Origin: Phytoseiulus persimilis
Lineage: Eukaryota; Arthropoda; Arachnida; Mesostigmata; Phytoseiidae
DNA length: 64,000 nt
Direction: 5' to 3'
NCBI GenBank assembly: GCA_037576195.1
Contig: CM075103.1
Coordinates: forward strand, 14,942,001-15,006,000
Numbering within the stretch: position 1 is the stretch's first letter; every line of letters starts with the position of its first letter. A model generated the notes under the pieces. It was not told where the DNA came from and ran no database searches. It worked only from the letters and a program-made list of their open reading frames with translations. A program made the position numbers and the translations under genes. This document shows, piece after piece, positions 1,175-59,465 of the stretch.

Positions 1175-4100
1175 GTGAGTGTCAAGATCATTTTTCTTGA
1201 CTCATTCACGCGTTCAGCAGCCGGGGACCAGCTCTACCGATCAGGCCGAAGTAGGTGGACCCCCGGTCGGTTCGACTAACGACCGTCCTCGAGCGACGAC
1301 GGGATTTCATGGCGACCAGAGCCTGAATAAATCTCCCCGATTCGAGTGACTCGGGCGCCCTCGCCCAACGGTCTTCAGCGTCGAGTGTCGCAGCGGGCGC
1401 GTGTTCGTGGCGGGGCTAACTCGGGTCGGAAGTTCCCTGGAAACGGCGGGCGTGACAGTGATCCGCTCGTTGATGAATCGTCGCGCGCGAACGACATTCG
1501 AACTCGCCGATACGTTCGATGTTCACGAGCGAGCTCGATGCTTGCGAATCGATCAACGAGAGCTTCGTCTTGCGTCGTGATCCAGAACAGGAGTCTCTTA
1601 CCAAGCGAGCGTGTAGTTTGAGCGTTTTGTACCGCTAAGAAAAGTCTCAAAGTTTTCGCAAGCTGCGGCGAGAGGGAGAAGGCGGAGGCCTCGAGAAGTA
1701 GAGGAGAACGGTTTCGCCGGAAGATGCCGAGTTTGCGCAATAGGGACAAAAAGTTTCATCGGTCAGACTCTGAAACGCCCGACTGCGTCTCTTCTGCCCG
1801 GTTCAAAGTAGCCATTCGGGGAGCCAACGGAGCAGCGAACAACCGCCGGCCACTGTTGTTGCTTTTTGCTGGGCTCGTGGGGGGAGCTTGCCCGCTTGCC
1901 GGCTCGTTTCAAGGCGTGGGTGGATTACGGGGTACGCCATCCGCTCGGGAAAAAATAGCCGCGGGTCAAGGGGTGTTTTTTATCTCTTGAGGTTGAGCGG
2001 GAACAAAGTTGCGACCTCGTGCATGCGACGTCAACTTCACACTTTGAGATGTTGGCGTAGGCGGCGAGGGTCTCGACTCGTCGAGCTCGGAGCAGTTTCG
2101 CAGTGATGACTTACCGCGATGTTTTCCACGTTCCCCGAGGCACGACCGGGCGTGTCACAGCAGTCGGGATGAGGTTGAACACGGACGGAATATGTCCCAG
2201 AGCTAGTCCCAGAGCAACAAAACATTCGCGAACTTGAGGGATTAGGTTGCCACGAGAAACCGGGATCAGCCTCGGCTATGAACGAGGTTGAAACTGCGTT
2301 CTCTGACGCGGAGAATATGTGCAACTGCATCTACGTGAGACGGATGGCCGCGCCCCAGCGACGGACCGTTTCCTCGGGCCACGGGTCCATGCGCCACCGT
2401 GACGAAGCATCCCGGATTGACCAGGGCTGCCCCGGAGCGGGTCCCGAGCTGAGAACAGGGCCTGTGACTGACCATCGCGCCTCAATAGGCTCCGCTCAGT
2501 CTCGCGGGAGGTCATCCCAGGAAGCTATCAATGGGTCAATCTCGTAGTGAGCGGAAGAATAGTCCGAGCTGGCGTGAAAGCGATCATGAAACAGGTATTC
2601 CATCAAGTCCGCCGACATCTATGGGGTGCAATATGAAAAGTGGGAATCTTCCCCCCATCTCGGCAAAAGCGTCCCCGCGTGTCTTGGATCCACAGACTCA
2701 TGTCCGTGTCTGAGCGAAAGTCTGTTCGCGGAACGGAATGCTGATAATGTATAACTCTGTCTGCTCTCATCCGCTTATCGTCTCGAGAACGTTCTGCCGA
2801 GGAAATGTGGAGGCATAGCTGCCCATCATATGTTCACAGGGGAGGCGAACTCTGGTCTCCCCCCCGACCTCCGACACAGTGGCGAGGATGCGGGAGGAAC
2901 GATCGTCGGGAGCGCCACGCTCTGAGGGCGTTCCGCTGTTTCCAGAGTTGCTCGAGGCCCGTCATTTCAGTCCCCCCCCCCTCCCCCGGTATCTGTTGAG
3001 TGAGAAGATCAGGTGTCCTCCAGGTCGCATACGGCAGCTCAGTGACCGTCATATCAGAGACCCAAAGTTATGCGGTTCGCTGGGCGCTCGGCGTTCCGGG
3101 CCGGTGAGTAGCTGATTCATACTCCGCGAGCTAGAGTGGTTTCTATTCAAAGTCTGAAGATGCTGATGCAAGCTCAGGAACATGGAACGAATACAGTCCA
3201 TGCTGGACGAAAGGTGGCAAAAAGCTCTCCTGAACATTTCTTGAGGCTTGGCATGCTTCTCAGCTCGAGTCCAGGGACATATCGCCTCTGCGGCTATCGG
3301 AGATGAGACGCTCCAGCAGCCTCAGCGACAGCAGGCATGCTGCCAACAAGAGAACTTCCCGAAGAAGGGGATGACAATACATTCCCACGATGCGGTACAC
3401 ACGAGGAGACGTGACAAGCCATTGTCTTCAGATGTAAAGACGCATGCTACACAGACGATCATCTCCCCGAAGTACTAGGCCCCAGACAAGATGCAGAACC
3501 CATCGGCGGTGCACTAGACAGAGCTTGTTCGAGAAGGAGGCCACATGATGTGCGGTGGCGCACGAGGTGCAACGCTGATCCGACCGGACTGTGTACTGCG
3601 TACAAACCACCAATCGAATCAAGATCAAGAAACCGACAACCGAAATCGGTATTGAACGAGACCTGCAGCAATCCATGGGTTTTTGAATGGGAAGATAAAT
3701 AAGATTGTCAACGATGTCTCATGGCAAAGGAGAACTCAGGTGTGAAATGACGAATGCCTGAACTTCTAGCAAGTGGACCTTTGCTTATGGGCAATTGAAA
3801 AGCCGCTCAGATCTAATTTCATCCGGTTCGTCCCCTGAAATAACAACGAAGAAAATAACAGTCTCAGCTCTGGCTGAATTTCGGATTTTCGGGGCGATTT
3901 CCAGGGAAGCCCTGATCTGATTGGATTCATGTTGCGGTTGTTGTTCTATCCGAAATATGGAGAAAAGACGCATCTTTCGAGTTAGCTCGTCTGATTCGGG
4001 TCTTGGCCGTAAGTCTAAGAGAACTCTGCTTCGATAATTTTGTCAAGGACCAATGTTTCTGATGCGCGCATAGCGAAAGGAGCCCATGCTTCGCACATGC

Positions 4101-20065: not shown

Positions 20066-22182
20066 ATCCCAGACTTTCAGCTACGAGCAACTAGACTGCG
20101 GTACTGAGCCAATTTCTCTTGGGAACTCGGAAAGCCACTTACTTTTTACAGGCTTCATGCGCACTGCGTGGCGTACTGCGTCATCGGAGTCGGGATAACT
20201 ACGTCACGGTCAACCGGAGCGAGCGCGAGCTCATTCAGTTTCGCTCATTCAAGCAAACATGGCGCCAAGAGTTACGTGCTGCGTTCTCGGCCTATACAAT
20301 CAATAGCGCAGCGACCCTCTGTGATACCCGGGTCGGGATCTCGACCTGATGCCCGTTATGAGGGAATTTCTTTCAAGTGCGGAACAGAGGCAAGTATCAT
20401 CCTGGACCAGTTTGACCAGTAGGAAAATGGGGATATGTCGCATGAGTGCAGTCTTTTATGTGAGAGGTGACCTCACGAATGGACTGTTTCTCCTATAACG
20501 GTTACTGATGTTCAGTGATGAGAATTGCTCACTCGATTGATTGATTGATTGGTTTTCGATGCGAGAAGATCACCGTGATCATGACCGTGATCCGTGATCT
20601 CCAGAACATCGCTCTGCCTATCGAGAAGCAAGCTACTTGTGCTGCTGAAAACTCAACGGCATTCAGAAATTCTAGGCTCGTTTCAGACGCGAGCTAACAT
20701 TTATCGTATTCAGGGTTCATCCCATAAATTTCCGTAATCTCTCAATCCCGATGCCTCAGAGCTGGCGTAGGACAGTGTGCGTCCTGAAAATTTCGTAAGA
20801 TTCACTTGTGCGATCCTCGTTCCTGTCGTCATGATGACAAGAACCATCACATGGTAATGGATGGAACAAGTGCTCTCAGTTTTATTTCCTGTGCTCAAAG
20901 TTTTCCGAGTGTGTGGTGATCACCTTCACGTACGGAAAGCCGGAGATTTCTTTGCAATCATGTTGGGCACATGTGCAGCATTCCGAACCATTCTGAGCTA
21001 TATCGAGATTCGACGCTTCAAGACGGAATCTCCAGGCGAGAAAAACAGGAACAACAACGCAAATTCACGGAATTATGGGCATGGGGTAACCCCCTCGAGG
21101 AACGGTCTCTCCTTCTTGGAACTCCGCTCCGAATATTCGAGAACCGCATCTTCCCATGTGGATGTGTACCTGGTTTAAACCTCGGGGCTTGCAACATATC
21201 GAGAAAACGCACCATTTCGTGCGTCCTCTCGATAGCATCCGAAGTTCTCATGTCGGATCAATGTCATTTTTCATAGTTTGAGAGAATCGCATAAGAATGG
21301 TGGAATTGGATGGATTCGATGAATTGTCCGGCAGCATCCCTCATACGTATATTTGCGGGATTCTGTCCGGAAAAAGAGTTCAACTCTTTTAAAACTGATC
21401 GTCAAAATCGCTCACGGAGCAGGGATTGAAAGTGTCAGTGGTTGACGCGATCGTAGCGATCAGGTGTTGGATGTTATCAAAAATGAAGCTACGCGCTAGA
21501 TATCCCATGGATACATAGGTCGTCGGCCCATAGCAGGCCCACTGGTTGTCGAGGTGGTCGGCTTAACTGACGGCCTTTCGCAGGCCCAGCCATGGACGTC
21601 TCCAGGCCAATATCCCATCAAGGGGACGACATCAGGTCGTCCAAGATCCCCTGTCAATGTCCATCGCTTCCGCTATCAAGATGGATGGTGAAAGCTTCAA
21701 TAGGTGGCAAAACTTTGAATACTTTGCCGCTTTGTTGGCAAGGGGCGCCGTGATAGCCCAACGCCCGTTGACCGGCAGAGCGAGGTTCCTTCTGAGGATT
21801 TTAGGCAAGCCGGGGCTCCGCTGATATTTTGTCCCGCTGCAGGAAAGACAAGGGAAGCCGTGTCGGGACATCCTCCTGCGTTGGCTTATGAATTTCGGAT
21901 CGTGCGTCTCTCGCCCGAGGAAAGGAAGAACACTTGAAGATGACGAACCTGCATCAATCGCTGGGATGCGTTTTGGAGCAAGCAGAGGTTCGCCTTCCCC
22001 CACTGATGTGTGACGTGTTTGCGAAAACGGATCGATCACCAGATTTCGGAGCTCAGTCGAGAGAAACAGATTTTGGTTGTTCCCAACTTCACCATGTTCT
22101 CTACTCGCGAAAACCGGTTGCCTCTCTTGGCTGCTGCGTTATCATTCGAGTGGTCATACACTAATACTGAGCTCGCTGAAGA
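20066..22182. other. No confident gene
   Basis: A short ATTG tetranucleotide run lies near 20537-20551. A minus-strand frame at 21632-22039 and a plus-strand stretch reading WQNFEYFAALLARGA at about 21.7 kb are protein-like but unassigned. They may belong with the coding-like block just downstream. Confidence 0.25.
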
Positions 22183-30629: not shown

Positions 30630-30970
30630 ATCGCAAAATCGCAGTTTTCCGATTTTCGACCATTTCAGAGAAACCGTCGGTGCGGGTACGCCGTACGATC
30701 AAACACGAGCTCTTGGATCCTAAAGTTGACTAGGTTCCGCATATTCTGACTATTCGTGATTTTTCCGCACCTCTGGAAGCAGAAGTATCATCGATCGGAA
30801 TCCACACCGCCCTCAGTATTGCGGCTCAACGATGCCACGATTCAAATGTTGTCGATCCGTTTTGTTGTACATTTGGCTACGTTGGGTGGACCATATCACC
30901 GTGATTTTTGCTTCCCGTGGCTGAGCCGGAGTTTCGCAACCACCCAATAGCATCTATACCGGGGGATTTC
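30630..30970 (+). repeat. Old dispersed repeat, copy 1
   Basis: Blocks such as GAAACCGTCGGTG, a stretch like GACTAGGTTCCGCATATT, and a CACCCAATA box occur in the same order at 34150-34390 (copy 2). Similarity is patchy, so the pair is an ancient repeat of unknown type or a shared low-level duplication. Confidence 0.35.
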
Positions 30971-31048
30971 GACATTACGTGAGGTGTAGTCAACTGGGAA
31001 TTCGACGATACAGTCACTCGGAGAAAGGTAGTAGAAGCTTGTTGGAAT

Positions 31049-32546
31049 GGTGTCCTCCCGTTTTCCCGATACCGTTTCCCCGAAACCGTTTTCTTGAAGC
31101 CGTTTACCCGAAACCGTTCCCCCGACCAGGAACCCTCTCCTGATTCTGAGACCCTCCGAGTGTATGAGGCTTCTATGTAGGGCGCGGAGTTCGAGTGAGC
31201 GGACTTCAAGAGAAGCGAGTCATGTGAAGGGATTCCCCCTGCGCAATGTGATGGATTTGCATAGAGGAATACAGTCGCGCTTCCCGCGTACCCCCAATCC
31301 GGGATGAATAATTTCAGATGTGCTCAATATCACAATAACTTACATCAGGGCCGGGCAACTTGATGCGGCCCGCGGGCCGCACTTCGGAGGACCACCTAGA
31401 AAATCCCACGATGAAGAATTGGAGGCTCTCCTGACCCGGAGCAAAACCCAAACCCAGGAGGAGCTCGCGGAAGCGCTCGGCGTGACTCGAAGAACGATCC
31501 ATGGCCGTCCATGAACACTATGATAGGGAGCGCTCGTGCGCATCTCGGAAGTTTCCATATCAGAGAACGAATCGGAAAGCCTACGAAACCGTTCTTTCGG
31601 ATCGCAAACTTCTTTTCGTTCCGGTGCATCTTTTAGTTTGGAATCTCAGGAACGATTCAGCCGTACAATTCGACCGCGGTTTTTGTTCCATTGTGTTCTA
31701 AAAGTGTTTCATTCCTTCTTGTGAGCGATGGAAACGAGAGTTGTTTGAGCCGACTCGGACGAAACAGACCTGAGTAGGACAATGGAGATAAACGCACACT
31801 CTCCCGGACCCGACCATCCTGCATACTTGTTTGGGAACTTTCAAAGAGTATTTTGCGAGAGCTGTGGAATCATTACCGGAATGACGGCGCCCGCACCACA
31901 TCGAAGGATGGCATCAAGCTCTGAATACGGCGGTTGGGAAGGCTTATCCGAACGTCTTCGATTTGGTGAAACATCTCTAACAACAAGAGCAACGGTCTAA
32001 AAATGACATGCTTCTCCTGCGGCAGGGAGGGCCCCCACCTCGATCACGACCGCGAAATCGAAGAATCAATCAGGAACTAATGAACTTCGTGGAGGAATTG
32101 GAATTGGAGACCAATCAAATTTCGCTGTCACAATACCTTCAAAACATGGCGTCCGTGAAAGCTCTTGTATGACCTCGGGTCACTTGTTGAGACCTGATAT
32201 GAATCCTCATGCTTATTCGTAATGATATAACGGGCATATCGGCGAGCAAAGTTGTGCGGAATCATAATTAACCCTTCACCGCCAAATGTCACTCGCCAAG
32301 CTCCAGCACCATCATTCCCGAAGTCGAGGGTTAGTGTCTATGGTCGGCCGACTTCGCACTTCTTCCTAATTTATCAGCGTGATTGGGCTCAACTCTGCGC
32401 TCCACATAGAAGCCTCATAGACTCGTAGAGTCTCAGGATCAGGAGAGGGTTCCTGGTCGGGGAAACGAATTCGGGGAAACGGGTTCGGGGAAACGGGTTC
32501 GGGGGAACGGCTTCGGAAAACGGCTTCGGGGAAACGGGCTGTAACC
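31049..32546 (+). mobile_element. Long-TIR (foldback-like) non-autonomous DNA transposon, copy A
   Basis: The element begins GGTGTCCTCCCG and ends GGGCTGTAACC. It is flanked by GTTGGAAT (31041-31048) and GTTGGAAC (32547-32554), an 8-bp target duplication with one mismatch. Each end carries 5-6 tandem copies of a 14-bp unit of the type CCGTTTCCCCGATA, then a shared block reading CCCTCTCCTGATTCTGAGAC, in inverted orientation at the two ends. Copy B (53948-54794) has the same ends and interior. Copy A is about 650 bp longer, owing to a segment at about 31396-32060 absent from copy B, which includes a mariner-like helix-turn-helix coding fragment. No transposase for this element is visible. Eight-base duplications fit hAT, Merlin, P or Mutator-like superfamilies, and the ends alone do not decide. 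Confidence 0.82.
31404..31514 (+). pseudogene. Mariner-type helix-turn-helix fragment inside copy A
   Basis: The frame reads EELEALLTRSKTQTQEELAE followed by ALGVTRRTIHGRP. This matches the second DNA-binding helix-turn-helix of mariner transposases (pattern L-x-A-L-L-x(5)-Q-T-Q-E-E-L-A-x-x-L-x-V-T). Nothing resembling the rest of a mariner, in particular the DDD catalytic core, follows. The fragment lies in the segment that distinguishes copy A of the long-TIR element from copy B. It is unrelated in detail to the complete mariner at 43.4 kb. Confidence 0.6.
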
Positions 32547-32692
32547 GTTGGAACCCCGGGGAGCTTCTTTCAGGCACTGGACCTTATAATTGCCCATTGA
32601 AATGGAGTCAGCAGTGAGAGTCCACTCTTTGCGGTTCAGTAAGGATTCGGCGTCGCAAATCAGGATCTTGACATCCGGCTCTGGGCAAGCTA

Positions 32693-32864
32693 GAACCGGT
32701 CCTAGACTTTCAGAACCGGTTATGTGCATATTGGAACCGGTTGTGGACTCTCAGAACCGGTTCCGGGCAACCTGGAACCGGCTCCCGATTCTCGGAACCG
32801 GTTCGGAGCACATCGGGACTGATTCCAGGTCACCCAGAACCGGATCTGCATATCCAGAACCGGT
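32693..32864 (+). repeat. Phased array of AACCGGTT-type motifs
   Basis: Nine units of about 20-21 bp each contain GAACCGG (usually GAACCGGT or GAACCGGTT). Units start at about 32693, 32713, 32734, 32754, 32775, 32795, 32815, 32837 and 32857, and the seventh is degenerate. The spacer sequence differs between units while the palindromic core is kept, which is unusual for a simple minisatellite. AACCGGTT is the known consensus of Grainyhead/CP2-family transcription factors, so a homotypic binding cluster is possible. That use is inference. Confidence 0.75.
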
Positions 32865-32879
32865 TATTTGCGACCCCTA

Positions 32880-33540
32880 ATCAGGATCGAAGTGAGTTGT
32901 GGAGAGGGTGATTGAAAAACATGTCGGAAGAATCCGCGCGATTTGGCGCTCCATACACAGGAACCATATACGCAGGGTTGCTCTTCGTCGTGGGGGTCGG
33001 AGCGCGCAGTAAATAATTTTCCGATGGAATACGGTTGAATCCTTCTCATAGATTGCTTCGAGGCTCAAGTTCATTCTCGATGAGAAGTTCTGGAAGTCAG
33101 CCAGATGCAACCCCGATTCGAGTAGAAGTTCCGCGGAACAATCAAGTCACCCTTGAACTGGCAGGATACAGCTTCTTTCTTGAGCGCTGTGGATTTCAGG
33201 CAAAACCATTGAAGTTTTTTCAATATGTTCGCTCGTCTGGCGCCCCAAAGACTGACATTTTGTGTGTTTGCTCAGGATGTATGCCTTCAGTTGACCAGCT
33301 TGTTGTTTCCTGGGAGCTTCATTTTCCGAATGTCGCGAATGGTTCAACTCAAGCGCGGGGCTCGGACAGGTGGCTCCGTTGTGCGAATCATACGACGCCT
33401 CCCGTTAACCACAAAGACTTAGCCATCCTCGATATCCGAGTGATTTCATCAATCTCTCGGTTCGAATGGATTCTGAGCCCAGCGAAAGATTTTCAACGAG
33501 TACTCGGATGGGCGCCCCTGTTTCTCGCATGAGGCGATCG
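32880..33540 (+). other. Coding-like stretch, unidentified
   Basis: The plus strand is open from 33035 to 33532 (165 codons) and reads, for example, VTLELAGYSFFLERCGFQAK and DLAILDIRVISSISRFEWIL. The composition is protein-like with regularly spaced hydrophobics. It may be another leucine-rich-repeat-like remnant. The initiator is not distinctive, other frames are partly open, and I recognise no family. Confidence 0.25.
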
Positions 33541-36870: not shown

Positions 36871-37184
36871 TTTGTTTGTCCTCAATAGGCTCCTCCGGTA
36901 TTGATCGGATCGACTTGGAACAAACTGCATAATGTAGGGCGGCTCTCCGGGAAGGACATAGGCCACCCACCCCTTCCCCCCTCCTCCTCCCCTCCTCCCC
37001 CCCTCGCGATTTACCCCAACTTTGACCCACTCCATACTGTCATCCGCATCCAAATTCTGACGATAGGGTGCACCGCCCCGTGATGACGCCAGCCAGACTC
37101 TTAGGCCTCATCCCATCGTCATCGGATATCCTTCCCCACCCCCTCTCCTATACATCCATCATAGAAATCTATCATGAAAATATC

Positions 37185-38297
37185 TGGGGGGGTGATTCTG
37201 AGACCAATAAGGCCATTACTTCCCAACTCTGTAGGGATGATTCCGAGACCAATCTGGCCATTACTTCCCAACTCTGGAGGGGTGATTACGAGACCAATCT
37301 GGCCTTCAGATTCTAACTCTGGAGGGGTGATTCCGGTACCAATCTGGCCATTACTTCCCAACTCTGTAGGGATGATTCCGAGACCAATCTGGCCATTAGT
37401 TTCCAACTCTGGAGGGGTGATTACGAGACCAATCTGGCCTTCAGATTCTAACTCTGGAGGGGTGATTCTGGTACCAATCTGGCCATAACTTTCCAACTCT
37501 GGAGGGGTGATTACGAGACCAATCTGGCCTTCAGATTCTAACTCTGGAGGGGTGATTCTGGTACCAATCTGGCCATAACTTTCCAACTCTGGAGGCGTGA
37601 TTCCGAGACCAATCTGGCCATTACTTTCCAACTCTGGAGGGGTGATTCTGGGACCAATCTGGCCATTACTTTCCAACTCTGGAGGGGTGATTCCGAGACC
37701 AATCTGGCCATTACTTTCCAACTCTGGAGGGGTGATTCCGGGACCAATCTGGCCATTAGTTTCCAACTCTAGAAGGGTGATTCCGAGTCCAATCTGAGCA
37801 TTACTTCCCAACTCTGGAGGGATGATTCCGAGACCAATCTGGCCATTATTCTCCAACGCTGTAGGGGTGATTCTGGGACCAATCTGGCCATTACTTTCCA
37901 ACTCTGGAGGGGTGATTGCGACACCAATCTGGCCATTACTCTCCTACCCTGGAAGAGTGATTCCAGGACCAATCTGACAATACTCTTCCGAGTCTGGAGG
38001 GGTGCTTCCGAGTCGAATCTGACCGTACTTTCCAAAACCTGGAGGGATGATTCCGTCTCCAATCTGACCATTACTTTCCGAGTTTGGAGGAGTGATTCCG
38101 AGACCAATCTGGCCATCACTCTGCAACTCCGGAGGGTGATTCCGGGACCAATAAGGCCATTACTTTCCAACTCTGGAGGGGTGATTACGAGACCAATCTG
38201 GCCGTACTTTCCAAAACCTGGAGGGGTGATTCCGTCTCCAATCTGACCATTACTTCCCGAGTTTTGAGGAGTGGTCCTGGAACCAATCTGGCCATAA
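37185..38297 (+). repeat. 45-bp minisatellite, about 25 units
   Basis: Tandem units of the type GGGGTGATTCCGAGACCAAT, followed by CTGGCCATTACTTTCCAACT and CTGGA, repeat with a 45-bp period. Middle units are nearly identical and the last five or so are more diverged. Because 45 is divisible by three, the minus strand is open for 260 codons encoding a 15-residue repeat (ELESNGQIGLGITPP). There is no start context, and the frame continues only as long as the array does, so this is best read as a by-product of the repeat and not a gene. Copy B of the Helitron has about three related units. Confidence 0.9.
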
Positions 38298-43412: not shown

Positions 43413-43562
43413 GATCCGACATTTTTGAAATTCCCGCGCTCCGCACAAGAGCCGCCTACTACAGTGGTTGTTCGTTTACGTTCTTAGGCGGGCTCTAGAG
43501 TTCCTACCGGTGTATCGTTTCAGACTTTATCGTCGAGTTCGTAAAATCAGGAAGAATTTGCG

Positions 43563-44591
43563 ATGGAGGACCAAAAGCAGCATTTTCGACACATAATGTT
43601 GTTCTGCTACCGCGAAGGCTTGAATGCAGCGAAGACCACTCGAAGAATATCTGCAGTTTACGGGGAGAATGCTCTTCAAAGTTCTACGGTTAGAAAGTGG
43701 TTTACCCGTTTCAAGGCTGAAAACTTTAATCTTGAAGATGAGCCCAGATCAGGACGACCACAAGTTGTGGAACCCGATGAAATCATTAGCCTGGTAACTT
43801 CAAACCCCGGCCTGACCATCAAAGAAATTGAAGACTCGACGGGAGTTTCTCATGGAACCGTTTGGAATCGCCTCCATCAAGCTGGCTTCTCAAACAAGAG
43901 GAATATATGGCTGCCTCATGACCTCACCGATCGCCAGCTCGAAAGACGTGTGGATACAAGCCACACTCTTCTCCGGAAGAATGCCAATGAACCATTTCTG
44001 AAGAGACTGATAACCGGCGATGAAAAGTGGATACTCTACAGGAACGCTACGCAAAGAAAAAGCTGGGTCCCCAAAGGTTCACGGGCCGCAGCCGTCCCCA
44101 AACCCGAAATTCATCAAAAAAAAGTGATGCTGAGCTGTTGGTGGGACTGCAAGGGCGTTGTGTTTTTCGAGCTGCTCCCGCCGGGTCAGACCATCACCAC
44201 CGAAGTCTACTGCAGGCAGCTTGAGGATTTGAAGACCGCAGTAGCAACAAAGCGCCCAGAATTGGCGAACAGATGGGGCGTCGTTTTTCAACATGATAAT
44301 GCGAGACCCCACGTAAGTTTGCGCTCTCGGCAGAAATTGGCGGAGTTTGACTGGGATGTGCTGCCACACCCAGCTTATAGTCCCGACCTTGCACCGTCAG
44401 ACTATCACTTGTTCCGGTCTCTTCAAAACTCTCTTGATGGAGAAATATTCGAATCTTTGGAGGGTATAAAAAATCACCTCAATCAGTTTTTTGGAAAGAA
44501 GGAAACCAAGTTCTGGGAGAAGGGAATCTTCGATTTACCTGACCGATGGGCGAAGGTCATAGAACAAAACGGCCAATATATCATTCAATAA
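43563..44591 (+). CDS. Mariner transposase, DD34D, 342 aa
   Basis: Cut-and-paste transposase that binds the terminal repeats and moves the element into TA sites. The N-terminal third has two helix-turn-helix regions (about residues 5-50 and 85-110), including the mariner motif SSTVRKWFTRFKAENF at 40-55 and the GRPQ linker near 64-67. The catalytic triad is complete: D153 in TGDEKW, D245 in FQHDNARPH and D280 in YSPDLAPSDYHLF, with 34 residues between the last two. The WVPKG motif is at 168-172. Length is normal for the family (about 340-355). The start at 43563 is an ATG in GCGATGGAG context, and the AATAAA signal overlaps the stop (44587-44592). No internal stop is present, so the protein could be functional. 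Confidence 0.96.
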   Translation: MEDQKQHFRHIMLFCYREGLNAAKTTRRISAVYGENALQSSTVRKWFTRFKAENFNLEDEPRSGRPQVVEPDEIISLVTSNPGLTIKEIEDSTGVSHGTVWNRLHQAGFSNKRNIWLPHDLTDRQLERRVDTSHTLLRKNANEPFLKRLITGDEKWILYRNATQRKSWVPKGSRAAAVPKPEIHQKKVMLSCWWDCKGVVFFELLPPGQTITTEVYCRQLEDLKTAVATKRPELANRWGVVFQHDNARPHVSLRSRQKLAEFDWDVLPHPAYSPDLAPSDYHLFRSLQNSLDGEIFESLEGIKNHLNQFFGKKETKFWEKGIFDLPDRWAKVIEQNGQYIIQ

Positions 44592-47073: not shown

Positions 47074-47384
47074 AATTTCCCGTTTCCTTGATTAACTGCT
47101 TTTCCGCTCCGCGAACCGAGTTCCCCACGCGGGAGCACCTTGCCTGCCTGCAACGGATACAGCCTCCCAGGAAAACCAGCAACACCATATGCAAGGAGGT
47201 TTCAGGACGGCACCCGAATGCATCAATCTGCGAGAACTTGTGGTGGATTTGCACGAGCCCCTAGATTTGCTTCCTCCTGGCTCTCGCGTTGTTCCTCCTT
47301 ATCCCAGTTCTCAGATCCATCTGTGCCCTCCTAAACCTCGCTATCTGAGTGGCATTCGGAGCCCTCCCCTCAACTAGACATTAA

Positions 47385-47690
47385 TTTCTGAATCTCGGAA
47401 ATTCGGAAGTTAATTGCCGAATCTCGGAAGTTCGGAAATTGATTTTCGACTTGAAAATCATTTCTCAACTCGAAAATCACTTTCTGGATCAAAAATCAAT
47501 TTTCGAGTCGGAAATTCAAGTATTTCGAGTCTTCTCCGACCTATCAGATGCTTCAGCGTTCAGTAAAGGAGTGCATTCGACCGCTGTCTGGCCGGAAAAT
47601 CACTCCTTGAGTCTTTCTTCGAGTCGGGTATTAATTTTCGAGCAAGAAATCAATGTCCGAATTTTCGAGATTCGAATGTCGATGCTTACC
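47385..47690 (+). repeat. AT-rich inverted-repeat element, copy 1
   Basis: The ends carry inverted, partly matching blocks (GAATCTCGGAAATTCGG at the left, and at the right the complement of GAATCTCGAAAATTCGG). Between them are repeated TCGAAAATCA-type units. The core contains TCAGATGCTTCAGCG and GTGCATTCGACCGCTGTCTG. The same core occurs in inverted orientation at 57265-57505. It resembles a MITE or foldback element. No target duplication could be fixed, so the boundaries are approximate. Confidence 0.6.
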
Positions 47691-53947: not shown

Positions 53948-54794
53948 GGTGTCCTCCCGTTTCCCCGATACCGTTTCCCCGATACCGTTTCCCCGAGACC
54001 GTTTACCCGAAACCGTTTCCCCGAAACCGTTTCCCCGACTAGAAACCCTCTCCTGATTCTGAGACCCTCCGAGTCTATGAGGCTTCTATGTGGACCGCGG
54101 AGTCCGAGTGAGCGGACTCCAAGGGGAGCGAGTCATGTTGAGGGATTCCCCTGCGCAATGTGATGGATCTGCATAGAGGAATACAGTCGCGTGTCCCGCG
54201 AGCCCCCAATCCGGGATGAATAATTTCAGATTTGCCCAATATCACAATAACTTACACCAAAGCCGGGCACCTTGGTGCGGCCCGCGGGCCGCATTTCGGA
54301 GGACCACCTTGAATTTTCGATGATGGAGAATCAATCAGAAACTCATGAACTTCGCGGAGGAATTGGAGACCAATCAAGTTTCGCTGTCACAATACCTTCA
54401 AAATGTGGCGTCCGTGAAAACTCTTGTATGACCTCGGGTCACCTCGCGAGACCTGATATGGATCCTCATACCCTTTTGTGATAATATAACGAGCATATCG
54501 GCGAGCAAAGTTGTGCGGAATCATAATAAACCCTTCACCGCCAAATGTAACTCGCCAAGCTCCAGCACCATCATTCCTGGAGCCGAGGGTTAGTGTCTAT
54601 GGTCGGCCGACTTCGAATTCTTCTTCCCAATTTATCAGTGTAATTGGTCTCGACTCCGCGGTTCACATAGAAGCCTCATAGACTCGGAGGGTCTCAGAAT
54701 CAGGAGAGGGTTTCTAGTCGGGGAAACGGTTTCGGGTAAACGGTCTTTGGGAAACGGTATCGGGGAAACGGTATCGGGGAAACGGGCTGTAACC
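53948..54794 (+). mobile_element. Long-TIR (foldback-like) non-autonomous DNA transposon, copy B
   Basis: The 847-bp element begins GGTGTCCTCCCG and ends GGGCTGTAACC, flanked by a perfect 8-bp target duplication GTCGAGAT (53940-53947 and 54795-54802). The inverted repeats are about 150 bp (roughly 53948-54105 and 54650-54794). The outer part of each arm is made of five or six 14-bp units (CCGTTTCCCCGATA type). The inner part is a near-identical block ending GAGGCTTCTATGTG. About 540 bp of interior match copy A without the segment at about 31.4-32.06 kb. No coding capacity. Confidence 0.88.
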
Positions 54795-57264: not shown

Positions 57265-57505
57265 AAGCAGCGGATAAAATTATTTCCCGACTCGAATTTT
57301 ATTCTCCGACTCGAAAATTATTTTCCGATTCGTGAACTTATTTTCCGGTCAGACATCGGTCGAATGCACTGATTGACTAGACGCCGAAGCATCTGACGGG
57401 TCGCAAATGACTCGGAATACTCGAATTTCCGACTCGGAAATTATTTTCTGATTTGGAAATTATTTCTCGAATTCCCGAAATTCGTGTTCGAGTCCATCGT
57501 TTGCA
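57265..57505 (-). repeat. AT-rich inverted-repeat element, copy 2 (inverted)
   Basis: Read on the minus strand, the core GTCAGATGCTTCGGCG and AGTGCATTCGACCGATGTCT matches 47385-47690, flanked by repeated TCGGAAAATAATTT-type units. The two copies are thus inverted relative to each other, about 9.6 kb apart. Boundaries are approximate. Confidence 0.6.
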
Positions 57506-58430
57506 AAAGTGGATGTTTACTTGTTAGACTTCGCCTCTTCGAGGCCTATGCCGCCAACTCGGTACATGGCGTTTCGTTGTTCGTGGACGAGAGGCTCCGA
57601 GAGGCCTCCAGTCGCGCACTAGAAACGTGCCGGAAATGGTTCCGACTCTTTATAACGTCGTTTATTCCAGCGAAGGAGCGGACGGGGAGATGCCATCGGC
57701 TTCTATTCTGAAACAGAATCTTATTGGATTCTCCGACAAGAGAGTGGCTCCACAGATTCCAGATCAGATCTGTTTGATCGTCATAAAACTGAAGAATCGA
57801 TGAGTGGCTGTGTTTCAGAACGATGTTTTGTGTGTCACTTGGGCCACCCGAAACGACTTTCAGTCCGACGCATGTACTGTGGAACTCGAAAAATCTCGGT
57901 GGGGACAGGGAAGGCGATCTCAAGAAATATTCTCGACGTTGTGTCCTGTGTAGCTGTCTTTGCTCCAACAAAGACAGAACCGAGAAGCGCTGAGAGGCTA
58001 AGAGTCCTCGAGGCCGTCCAATTAGACGTAAGACAGATTCCGCTGCTCAGAGCGAGTATTTCGCTGACTAGACGCAACGGAAAGCCCATAGGTACATTGA
58101 CTACGCAAACTTGCTCGCTGTATGGTACTGCTCATCGGTAGTTCGCTCATGCCCGCTGTTCTTCCCCGATGCGGTACCTCTCGGTTTTGTGGCTGCCGCG
58201 AGAATGTGTCAGTGATCCTCGAGGGACCAAGATACCCGCCGCATTCGAATTCGCGCGCCCCAGTGGAGCATCCTTAGCGATGAGCCACTGACAACTCCCC
58301 AGCCGAATATCGTCTGACCGCAGAGATCTAACGGAGCTCTTTGCATGAAGCAGACGATACACGCTGTGATCGGTATTTAAGGGTTTCGAAGCTTCAGCGC
58401 TCACTTTCGACGACGTGACAAGAGGTCAAG
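57506..58430. other. Upstream region of the DD37D gene
   Basis: Overlapping short frames of uncertain status (57546-57971 minus, 57800-58141 plus). I searched the 400 bp before 58431 for an inverted repeat matching sequence after 59465 and found none. A TATA-like GTATTTAAGGG lies about 55 bp before the start codon (about 58374-58384). Confidence 0.3.
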
Positions 58431-59465
58431 ATGGCTGAATCCCACTCTCAGAAGATTCAAGAAATGCACCGTCTGGCAGTTTTCGGAAGTTTGGAGAGGG
58501 GGCGCACCCCCGATGAAATCGAGGAATTTTTCGGCTTCCCGCGGTCTACCGTGGACAGTTTCACGAAGCAGTACCTTGACGGCGAGGAGCTTGAAAAGGA
58601 AACGGCTCGAAAGATGCGGCGCCGTTTGAACGTTGAACGCTTCCAGGAGACGATTCGAGGCGTGGACGAGGCTCTCACGACGAACCCCAAAATTTCGGTT
58701 GACGCTCTGGCGGAGCGGTTCAACTCAAGCAAGACTGCGATCTCGAGGATCATCGACGAAGACCTGCGTTTCGACTCCTACAAATCGAAGATTCGTCAAA
58801 CGCTCGCCCCGGCTCTGAAAGCGAGAAGATTGGAAATCTGTAGAAGACTGCTCACGTCCGTGAAGAATGAAGCATCGAGGAAACTACGTTTCTTCTCAAG
58901 TGAGAAAGCTTTTGTACGAGAAAGCAACCATCAGAAGCATCTTGGGCAAGTTCGGGATTCCGATTACGTCACGAACGTCGAGGAACCTCCCGCGGGGGTA
59001 CTCATTCTCAGTATTGTGAGTAGTGAAGGTGATGTGATGGCCCCATATTTCTTCGCTGAAGCAGAGAACGTTGACACGACGGCTTACCTCGGTGTCCTCG
59101 CGCGCGTGAACAAACCGTGGTTGGAGCACGTGGCTGCTGGTCGTCTTCATGTCTTCCAGCAAGATGAGAGTCCTACACATAGCAGCCCTCTGGTTCAGAC
59201 ATGGCTCGACGAAAACCTGAGTTCGTTCTGGTCGAAAGATCTCTGGCCGCCGTCCAGCCCAGATATTAACCCCTTCGATTACTACATATGGGGCGCTGTG
59301 GAGCGCGAAGTTAACAAGAAACAGCCGAGAGACACCAGTTCGCTAACTAGAGTGCTCCGGAGAGTGTTCCATGGACTTCAAAGAGATATTCTGAAGAAGA
59401 CATGTCGGCGATTCCGCCAGCGAATCGAAGCTGTCATTCAAGCGGGTGGGAGCTACATCGAATGA
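58431..59465 (+). CDS. maT-like DD37D transposase homologue with a lost catalytic aspartate, 344 aa
   Basis: This is a full-length, unbroken member of a Tc1/mariner-superfamily transposase group common in arthropods. The N-terminal helix-turn-helix (about residues 8-50) and a second DNA-binding region (about 80-112, ending IIDEDLRFDSYKSK) are present. The catalytic core shows D245 in VFQQDESPTH and D283 in WPPSSPDINPFDYYIWG, with 37 residues between them. The first acidic residue is missing: relatives have F-F-S-D-E-K where this protein has FFSSEKAF, with S157 in place of D. A polyadenylation signal AATAAA follows at 59506-59511. No terminal inverted repeats or target duplication were found. 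It is either a recently inactivated copy or a retained DNA-binding protein. Confidence 0.9.
   Translation: MAESHSQKIQEMHRLAVFGSLERGRTPDEIEEFFGFPRSTVDSFTKQYLDGEELEKETARKMRRRLNVERFQETIRGVDEALTTNPKISVDALAERFNSSKTAISRIIDEDLRFDSYKSKIRQTLAPALKARRLEICRRLLTSVKNEASRKLRFFSSEKAFVRESNHQKHLGQVRDSDYVTNVEEPPAGVLILSIVSSEGDVMAPYFFAEAENVDTTAYLGVLARVNKPWLEHVAAGRLHVFQQDESPTHSSPLVQTWLDENLSSFWSKDLWPPSSPDINPFDYYIWGAVEREVNKKQPRDTSSLTRVLRRVFHGLQRDILKKTCRRFRQRIEAVIQAGGSYIE

Follow-up and report, generated by a model that had tools for sequence, protein, structure and literature searches.

An array of palindromic motifs in the Phytoseiulus persimilis genome is very probably the body of a non-autonomous hAT transposon

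Is a dense, evenly spaced row of motifs resembling transcription factor binding sites a regulatory element of its locus, or does it belong to something that moves through the genome? The question is raised by a 64,000-nucleotide stretch of the P. persimilis genome (hereafter, the window), in which the original prediction described a helically phased array of GAACCGG-containing units and proposed that it is an enhancer-like or silencer-like cluster of Grainyhead/CP2 sites. We find it very probable that the array instead makes up the body of a non-autonomous hAT transposon (MITE) of 233 bp, a member of a family with its own BED/hAT transposase; binding by this transposase is the likeliest reason for the constancy of the cores.

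The array and the element that contains it

The regular array occupies positions 32693-32863 of the window, with units starting at 32693, 32713, 32734, 32754, 32775, 32795, 32816, 32837 and 32857, that is, with successive spacings of 20, 21, 20, 21, 20, 21, 21 and 20 bp. An exact GAACCGG is found on the + strand in eight units; the unit at 32816 has a degenerate version, GGACTGA, and the count of nine units with this core was thus slightly too generous. Three consecutive cores at 20/21-bp spacing occur four times in the window, always within the array; 100 dinucleotide shuffles gave no such triplet. The longer motif AACCGGTT, a CCGG-centred palindrome, has five copies in the array, and a sixth lies outside it at window position 22112, compared with 0.87 copies expected. 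The array is far beyond chance, yet it is not unique in the genome.

The spacers were thought to vary freely but proved to be of two types, 10 and 11 bases long, which alternate and produce a 41-bp period, the period also given by Tandem Repeats Finder. Furthermore, the spacer type reverses within the array: units 1-6 match the forward type, the spacer of unit 7 is of the reverse type (3 versus 7 mismatches) and that of unit 8 is nearly undecided between the two orientations (3 versus 4 mismatches). The feature is also larger than the predicted interval 32693-32864 once both ends are included (Table 1). The mutated left end starts with TCGGC.

Table 1. Features of the hAT-type element in the window
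Feature	Coordinates	Strand	Remark
Whole element, 233-bp internally deleted hAT-type MITE	32647..32879	+ (strand of forward units)	Both ends found, flanked by an imperfect 8-bp duplication
Left target-site duplication GTAAGGAT	32639..32646	.	6/8 match to right duplication
Left end TCGGCGTCGCAAA	32647..32659	+	2 mismatches to family end TAGGGGTCGCAAA
Six forward units, core GAACCGGTTC with alternating 10- and 11-base spacers	32693..32815	+	Left-arm remnant
Two units, first with reverse spacer type, second nearly undecided	32816..32856	-	Right-arm remnant
Last core GAACCGGTTA	32857..32866	.	Directly abuts right end
Right end, exact TAGGGGTCGCAAA	32867..32879	-	Exact match to family end (0 mismatches)
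Right target-site duplication ATCAGGAT	32880..32887	.	6/8 match to left duplication

As is usual for a MITE, the element is short, retains both ends, contains no transposase frame and has transposase-bearing relatives in the same genome. The window copy would have lost everything between its arms, which brought six left-arm units up against about two from the right arm, and it is probably an old, inactive insertion without a function today. Screening the window for perfect 9-bp inverted ends flanked by a duplication of at least 7/8 returned only an unrelated pair (26556/27546) and missed the element, the ends and duplication of which are mutated. Neither an Rfam match nor a tRNA was found in the window.

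A dispersed family with common ends

To place the array in its genomic context, we searched the assembly from which the window comes (181 Mb, 127 contigs). The 206-bp stretch 32675-32880 has at least 70 matches, and the pattern of three cores at 20/21-bp spacing was found 61 times in the forward and 54 times in the reverse orientation, compared with 0 and 0 for the reversed control; one locus with a different 21-bp repeat containing GAACCGG (C1:29445179) was excluded from this list. The original prediction had set a cluster particular to this locus against copies scattered genome-wide, and scattered copies are what the search recovered. We then considered 28 further array-bearing stretches of 6 kb, which were chosen through the core itself, a bias favouring cores, and are not all independent (L041 and L042 look like copies of each other, and L057 and L058 carry a single element).

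Across the window and these 28 stretches, 234 of the 362 distances below 60 bp between neighbouring cores equal 20 or 21 bp, in a count that includes a few distances from the neighbouring 14-bp repeat family. Distances of 11, 12, 14, 15, 17 and 18 bp recur, mostly at the ends of arrays, and strict phasing is therefore not universal. In the family at large, the 20/21-bp phasing is confined to the middles of the arrays.

Inverted, facing array arms are present in 9 of the 28 stretches (L040, L043, L044, L046, L049, L053, L054, L061 and L066), and BLAST returned no second inverted arm in 19. The arms of the 10,213-bp element at C3:14835043-14845255 are split across L057 and L058. In the family, each arm measures approximately 150-550 bp and consists of AACCGGTT rows, repeated every 20 or 21 bp just inside a TAGGGGTCGCAAA end, and the arms enclose a gene for the BED/hAT transposase or what deletion has left of that gene. 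The outward termini of the arrays are TAGGGGTCGCAAA, of which 118 exact copies were counted genome-wide, compared with 1 for the reversed control.

Eight end pairs have no more than two mismatches per end, and four of them are flanked by perfect 8-bp duplications, in L043 (TTCCCGAC), L054 (GTTCCGAC), L066 (GTTGTGAT) and the 10,213-bp element (GATGTGAA); by chance, about one pair in 65,000 would show a perfect 8-bp match. Two further pairs, in L044 and the window copy, match at 6 of 8 positions, and the duplications of the remaining two are weak (4/8 in L049 and 2/8 in L050). The L050 right end is found again in a tandem repeat of 929 bp, and its membership in the element is in doubt. In three additional pairs, each including one end with 3 mismatches, the duplication scores are 1, 2 and 2 of 8. 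The 8-mers flanking 22 good ends, some of which are the two sides of one element and hence not independent, carry T at position 2 in 20 cases and A at position 7 in 17. This bias agrees with the hAT target preference, nTnnnnAn. The terminal inverted repeats of hAT elements are short and start like YAGNG, and TAGGGGTCGCAAA has such a start at both family ends. Membership in the Tc1/mariner group was considered, the ends starting with TA, and rejected: the 8-bp duplications lie outside the TA, and the linked frames are of the BED/hAT type.

In L050, the 929-bp spaced repeat (positions 3101, 4030, 4959 and 5888) carries an end-like word, TTGGGGTCGAAAA, adjoining a AACCGGTT array; it may be a satellite that expanded from an element of this kind.

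The 41-bp period could also be that of an ordinary minisatellite generated by slippage, with no transposon involved, and the number of units does differ widely between loci, indicating that slippage or unequal exchange acts on the arrays. Nevertheless, defined ends, inverted arms, 8-bp duplications and a linked transposase are not expected of a minisatellite, nor is a spacer divergence three times that of the cores (see below). We regard this origin as extremely improbable for the array, and at the level of the family it is already refuted.

The transposase linked to the arrays

A genome search with the hAT dimerisation domain (PF05699) gave signals between or beside several arrays, and frames in L040, L056 and L061 exceeded the curated cut-off (E 1.4e-6, 5.9e-7 and 2e-7, respectively). 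Moreover, a BED zinc finger (PF02892; E 2.7e-10, 40.6 bits versus a cut-off of 20.6) lies at the start of a 561-aa open reading frame within the 10.2-kb element. This frame ends before the hAT dimerisation domain, which comes after stops, and none of the copies examined encodes an intact transposase. Pfam yielded no hit to the catalytic core (RNase H-like with a helical insertion), sequence matches to Hermes in the PDB were absent or not significant (E 0.09-0.13), and the structure model of the 561-aa frame (mean pLDDT 39.4) was too poor for a fold search. Accordingly, the assignment to hAT is based on the ends, the duplications, the BED finger, the dimerisation domain and the location of all of these together.

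The L056 frame has 111 matches in the genome, of which 25 were placed, including all 7 of at least 92% identity. All 7 start 0.4-3.2 kb from an array, whereas none of the 18 more distant matches placed (39-53% identity) has a AACCGGTT array within 5 kb; random genomic positions fall within 5 kb of an array in 0.17% of draws. This co-location indicates that the array belongs with one particular transposase family.

Eight of these 18 distant matches nonetheless have an exact TAGGGGTCGCAAA end no more than 2.4 kb away, among the ends listed on C1-C3. Inside near-identical ends at L053:2014 and L059:5337, CCGCGG occurs five times, a number reached by 1 and 0 of 500 shuffles, respectively; beside the near-identical ends in L052, in L041 and at window position 57395, no clear motif was seen. 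Tentatively, and with the odds somewhat against it, these observations may reflect related hAT families that share one end (TAGGG-TCGCAAA), each with its own tandem subterminal motif matched to its own transposase. If so, they would form a natural series with an unchanging cleavage end, along which the specificity of the BED finger and the array of sites were swapped or evolved together.

Conservation of the core and comparison with other transposons

The proposal that the core is kept while the spacers drift is borne out across the family. For 191 middle cores from 29 loci (the window and the 28 stretches, all found through the core and some forming related pairs), divergence from the consensus is 7.3% in the core, compared with 26.1% in the 10-base and 22.1% in the 11-base spacers, and the core is the less diverged in 29 of 29 loci. 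Middle cores were chosen by their neighbours and not by their own match, the rule of at most 2 mismatches not being applied to them; each was scored at the better of two offsets (the 41-bp case) and each spacer at its better orientation. Random 10-mers would be expected to diverge from the core consensus by 68%. In the window copy, the values are 12% for the core and 24% for the spacer.

The difference within the window copy is what selection for Grainyhead/CP2 binding at this locus would leave, whether on an enhancer, a silencer or a transposon possibly adopted by the host, and the array does hold five exact copies of AACCGGTT, the consensus named for Grainyhead in published accounts. However, a core bias of the same kind is found in all of the other 28 stretches and so comes from the transposon family rather than from the locus, and the ends, target duplications and transposase account fully for the array. 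In addition, Pfam assigned no host protein family to the 8 frames of at least 150 aa searched near the array, out of 38 such frames in the window, a size limit at which genes with short exons would be missed, and the surroundings of the array are rich in transposons. A regulatory cluster selected at this locus is therefore highly unlikely: related arrays are scattered through the genome as the arms of a hAT transposon that has a transposase of its own. What stands of the predicted row of protein-binding sites is the constant core with drifting spacers; its reading as a Grainyhead/CP2 enhancer or silencer finds no support.

Alternatively, the array could have been kept for its structure, with palindromic arms forming hairpins that aid excision, as in foldback elements. 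As single-stranded DNA, the window element is predicted to form a long hairpin (-58 kcal/mol) far more stable than those of shuffled sequences (z -6.43, none of 200 shuffles as stable), and long inverted arms are likewise present. Such a hairpin is expected if an internal deletion joined the two arms of a longer element. Pairing of the arms would give the 10-base core no advantage over the spacers, in contrast to the core conservation seen at all loci compared, and hAT elements cut and paste double-stranded DNA. We consider this explanation improbable, if less so than regulatory selection at the locus.

The likeliest cause of core conservation is binding by the transposase, by analogy with Hermes. 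In an active family, the BED fingers of the transposase would bind the AACCGGTT cores, and the 20/21-bp spacing would align the subunits of a transposase multimer along one side of the double helix; together, binding and spacing would keep the core constant and let the spacers drift. In Hermes, two BED domains bind a pair of quasi-palindromic subterminal repeats cooperatively, and exact phasing is crucial (PMC10368747). A preference for CGG is common among proteins with hAT BED-type domains, and the motifs of the hAT-encoded ones are matched in the subterminal parts of the elements that encode them (PMC8097297). A CCGG-centred palindrome repeated every two helical turns fits this picture of binding.

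Several known transposons resemble the family in part. The maize Ac/Ds elements are hAT transposons with short, repeated transposase-binding motifs (AAACGG) near their ends; the motif is a different one and there is no palindromic tandem array. Hermes, from the housefly, shares with the present family a BED-finger hAT transposase and phased (quasi-)palindromic subterminal sites, STR1-STR2 at its left end (PMC10368747). Its AAGT/AAGC sites are few and asymmetric between the ends, unlike the many tandem AACCGGTT copies in both arms here, and transposase binding has been demonstrated for Hermes, whereas we infer it for the present family. In Herves, a hAT element of Anopheles, the transposase binds a short motif that recurs in the subterminal regions of both ends, and such motifs differ between hAT families (PMC3143072); the Herves motif is CG/AATTCAT and does not form a long tandem array in inverted arms. 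Similar in architecture to the arms described here are the approximately 600-bp inverted ends of tandem repeats in gadMor-hAT-1784, a non-autonomous hAT element of Atlantic cod (PMC12368964), which is built of 167-169 bp units, as opposed to 20/21-bp units with a palindromic core; for the present family, a transposase-bearing relative was found in the same genome. The foldback-type elements Galileo and Tetris, as described in the accounts consulted, also have long inverted ends with internal tandem repeats, but belong to other or unassigned superfamilies (the P superfamily in the case of Galileo), in contrast to the BED/hAT transposase and 8-bp duplications found here. Thus, hAT inverted ends made of tandem repeats are already known from cod; our searches of the open-access literature in PubMed Central brought to light neither a hAT element whose arms consist of tandem AACCGGTT nor 20/21-bp palindromic units in arms of this type.

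An apparent regulatory cluster thus turns out to be a transposon fossil, which calls for caution in motif scans: a transposon family whose sites match a transcription factor consensus (AACCGGTT in the case of Grainyhead) seeds dense, ready-made clusters throughout the genome. The family is also an unusually clear hAT case, its arms being regular rows of palindromic sites and its linked transposase residing in the same genome. The rule that a BED finger reads the subterminal core, with the spacing set by the transposase ring, is directly testable with a small protein and short DNA.

Other repeats in and around the window

A second dispersed family, with inverted arms composed of 14-bp tandem repeats (TCGGGGAAACGG core), is represented in the window at 31058-32538 and 53957-54785, and the stretch 30900-32700 has at least 147 matches in the genome (40 of 196 candidates scored). 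The copy at 31058-32538 was considered as a part of the same element as the array and set aside as belonging to this separate family, the matches of which stop approximately 130 bp short of the first core of the array. One copy of the 14-bp family, at C1:22228504-22229691 in L041 (a stretch starting at C1:22228177), separates a AACCGGTT arm from a hAT fragment, probably as one transposon nested in another.

A 45-bp minisatellite of about 25 copies at window positions 37183-38295 encodes the peptide repeat ESNGQIGLGITPPEL. The same peptide repeat is encoded by a tandem array of approximately 4.8 kb (L067 and L058) inside the 10.2-kb hAT element. Two frames of 348 residues were found in the window: one, at 43545-44591, encodes a mariner-type transposase with no internal stop and with HTH_48 and Transposase_1 above the cut-off; the other, at 58419-59465, resembles a Tc-type transposase by eye, and Pfam recognized in it only a helix-turn-helix, below the cut-off. 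The segment 34157-34370 is a piece of another dispersed repeat, which elsewhere in the genome often occurs as inverted pairs approximately 0.6-2 kb apart. Finally, short tandem repeats around CGACTCGAAAAT are located at 47380-47531 and 57276-57460, and the latter adjoins, at 57395, the sequence GACGGGTCGCAAA, two mismatches from the hAT end.
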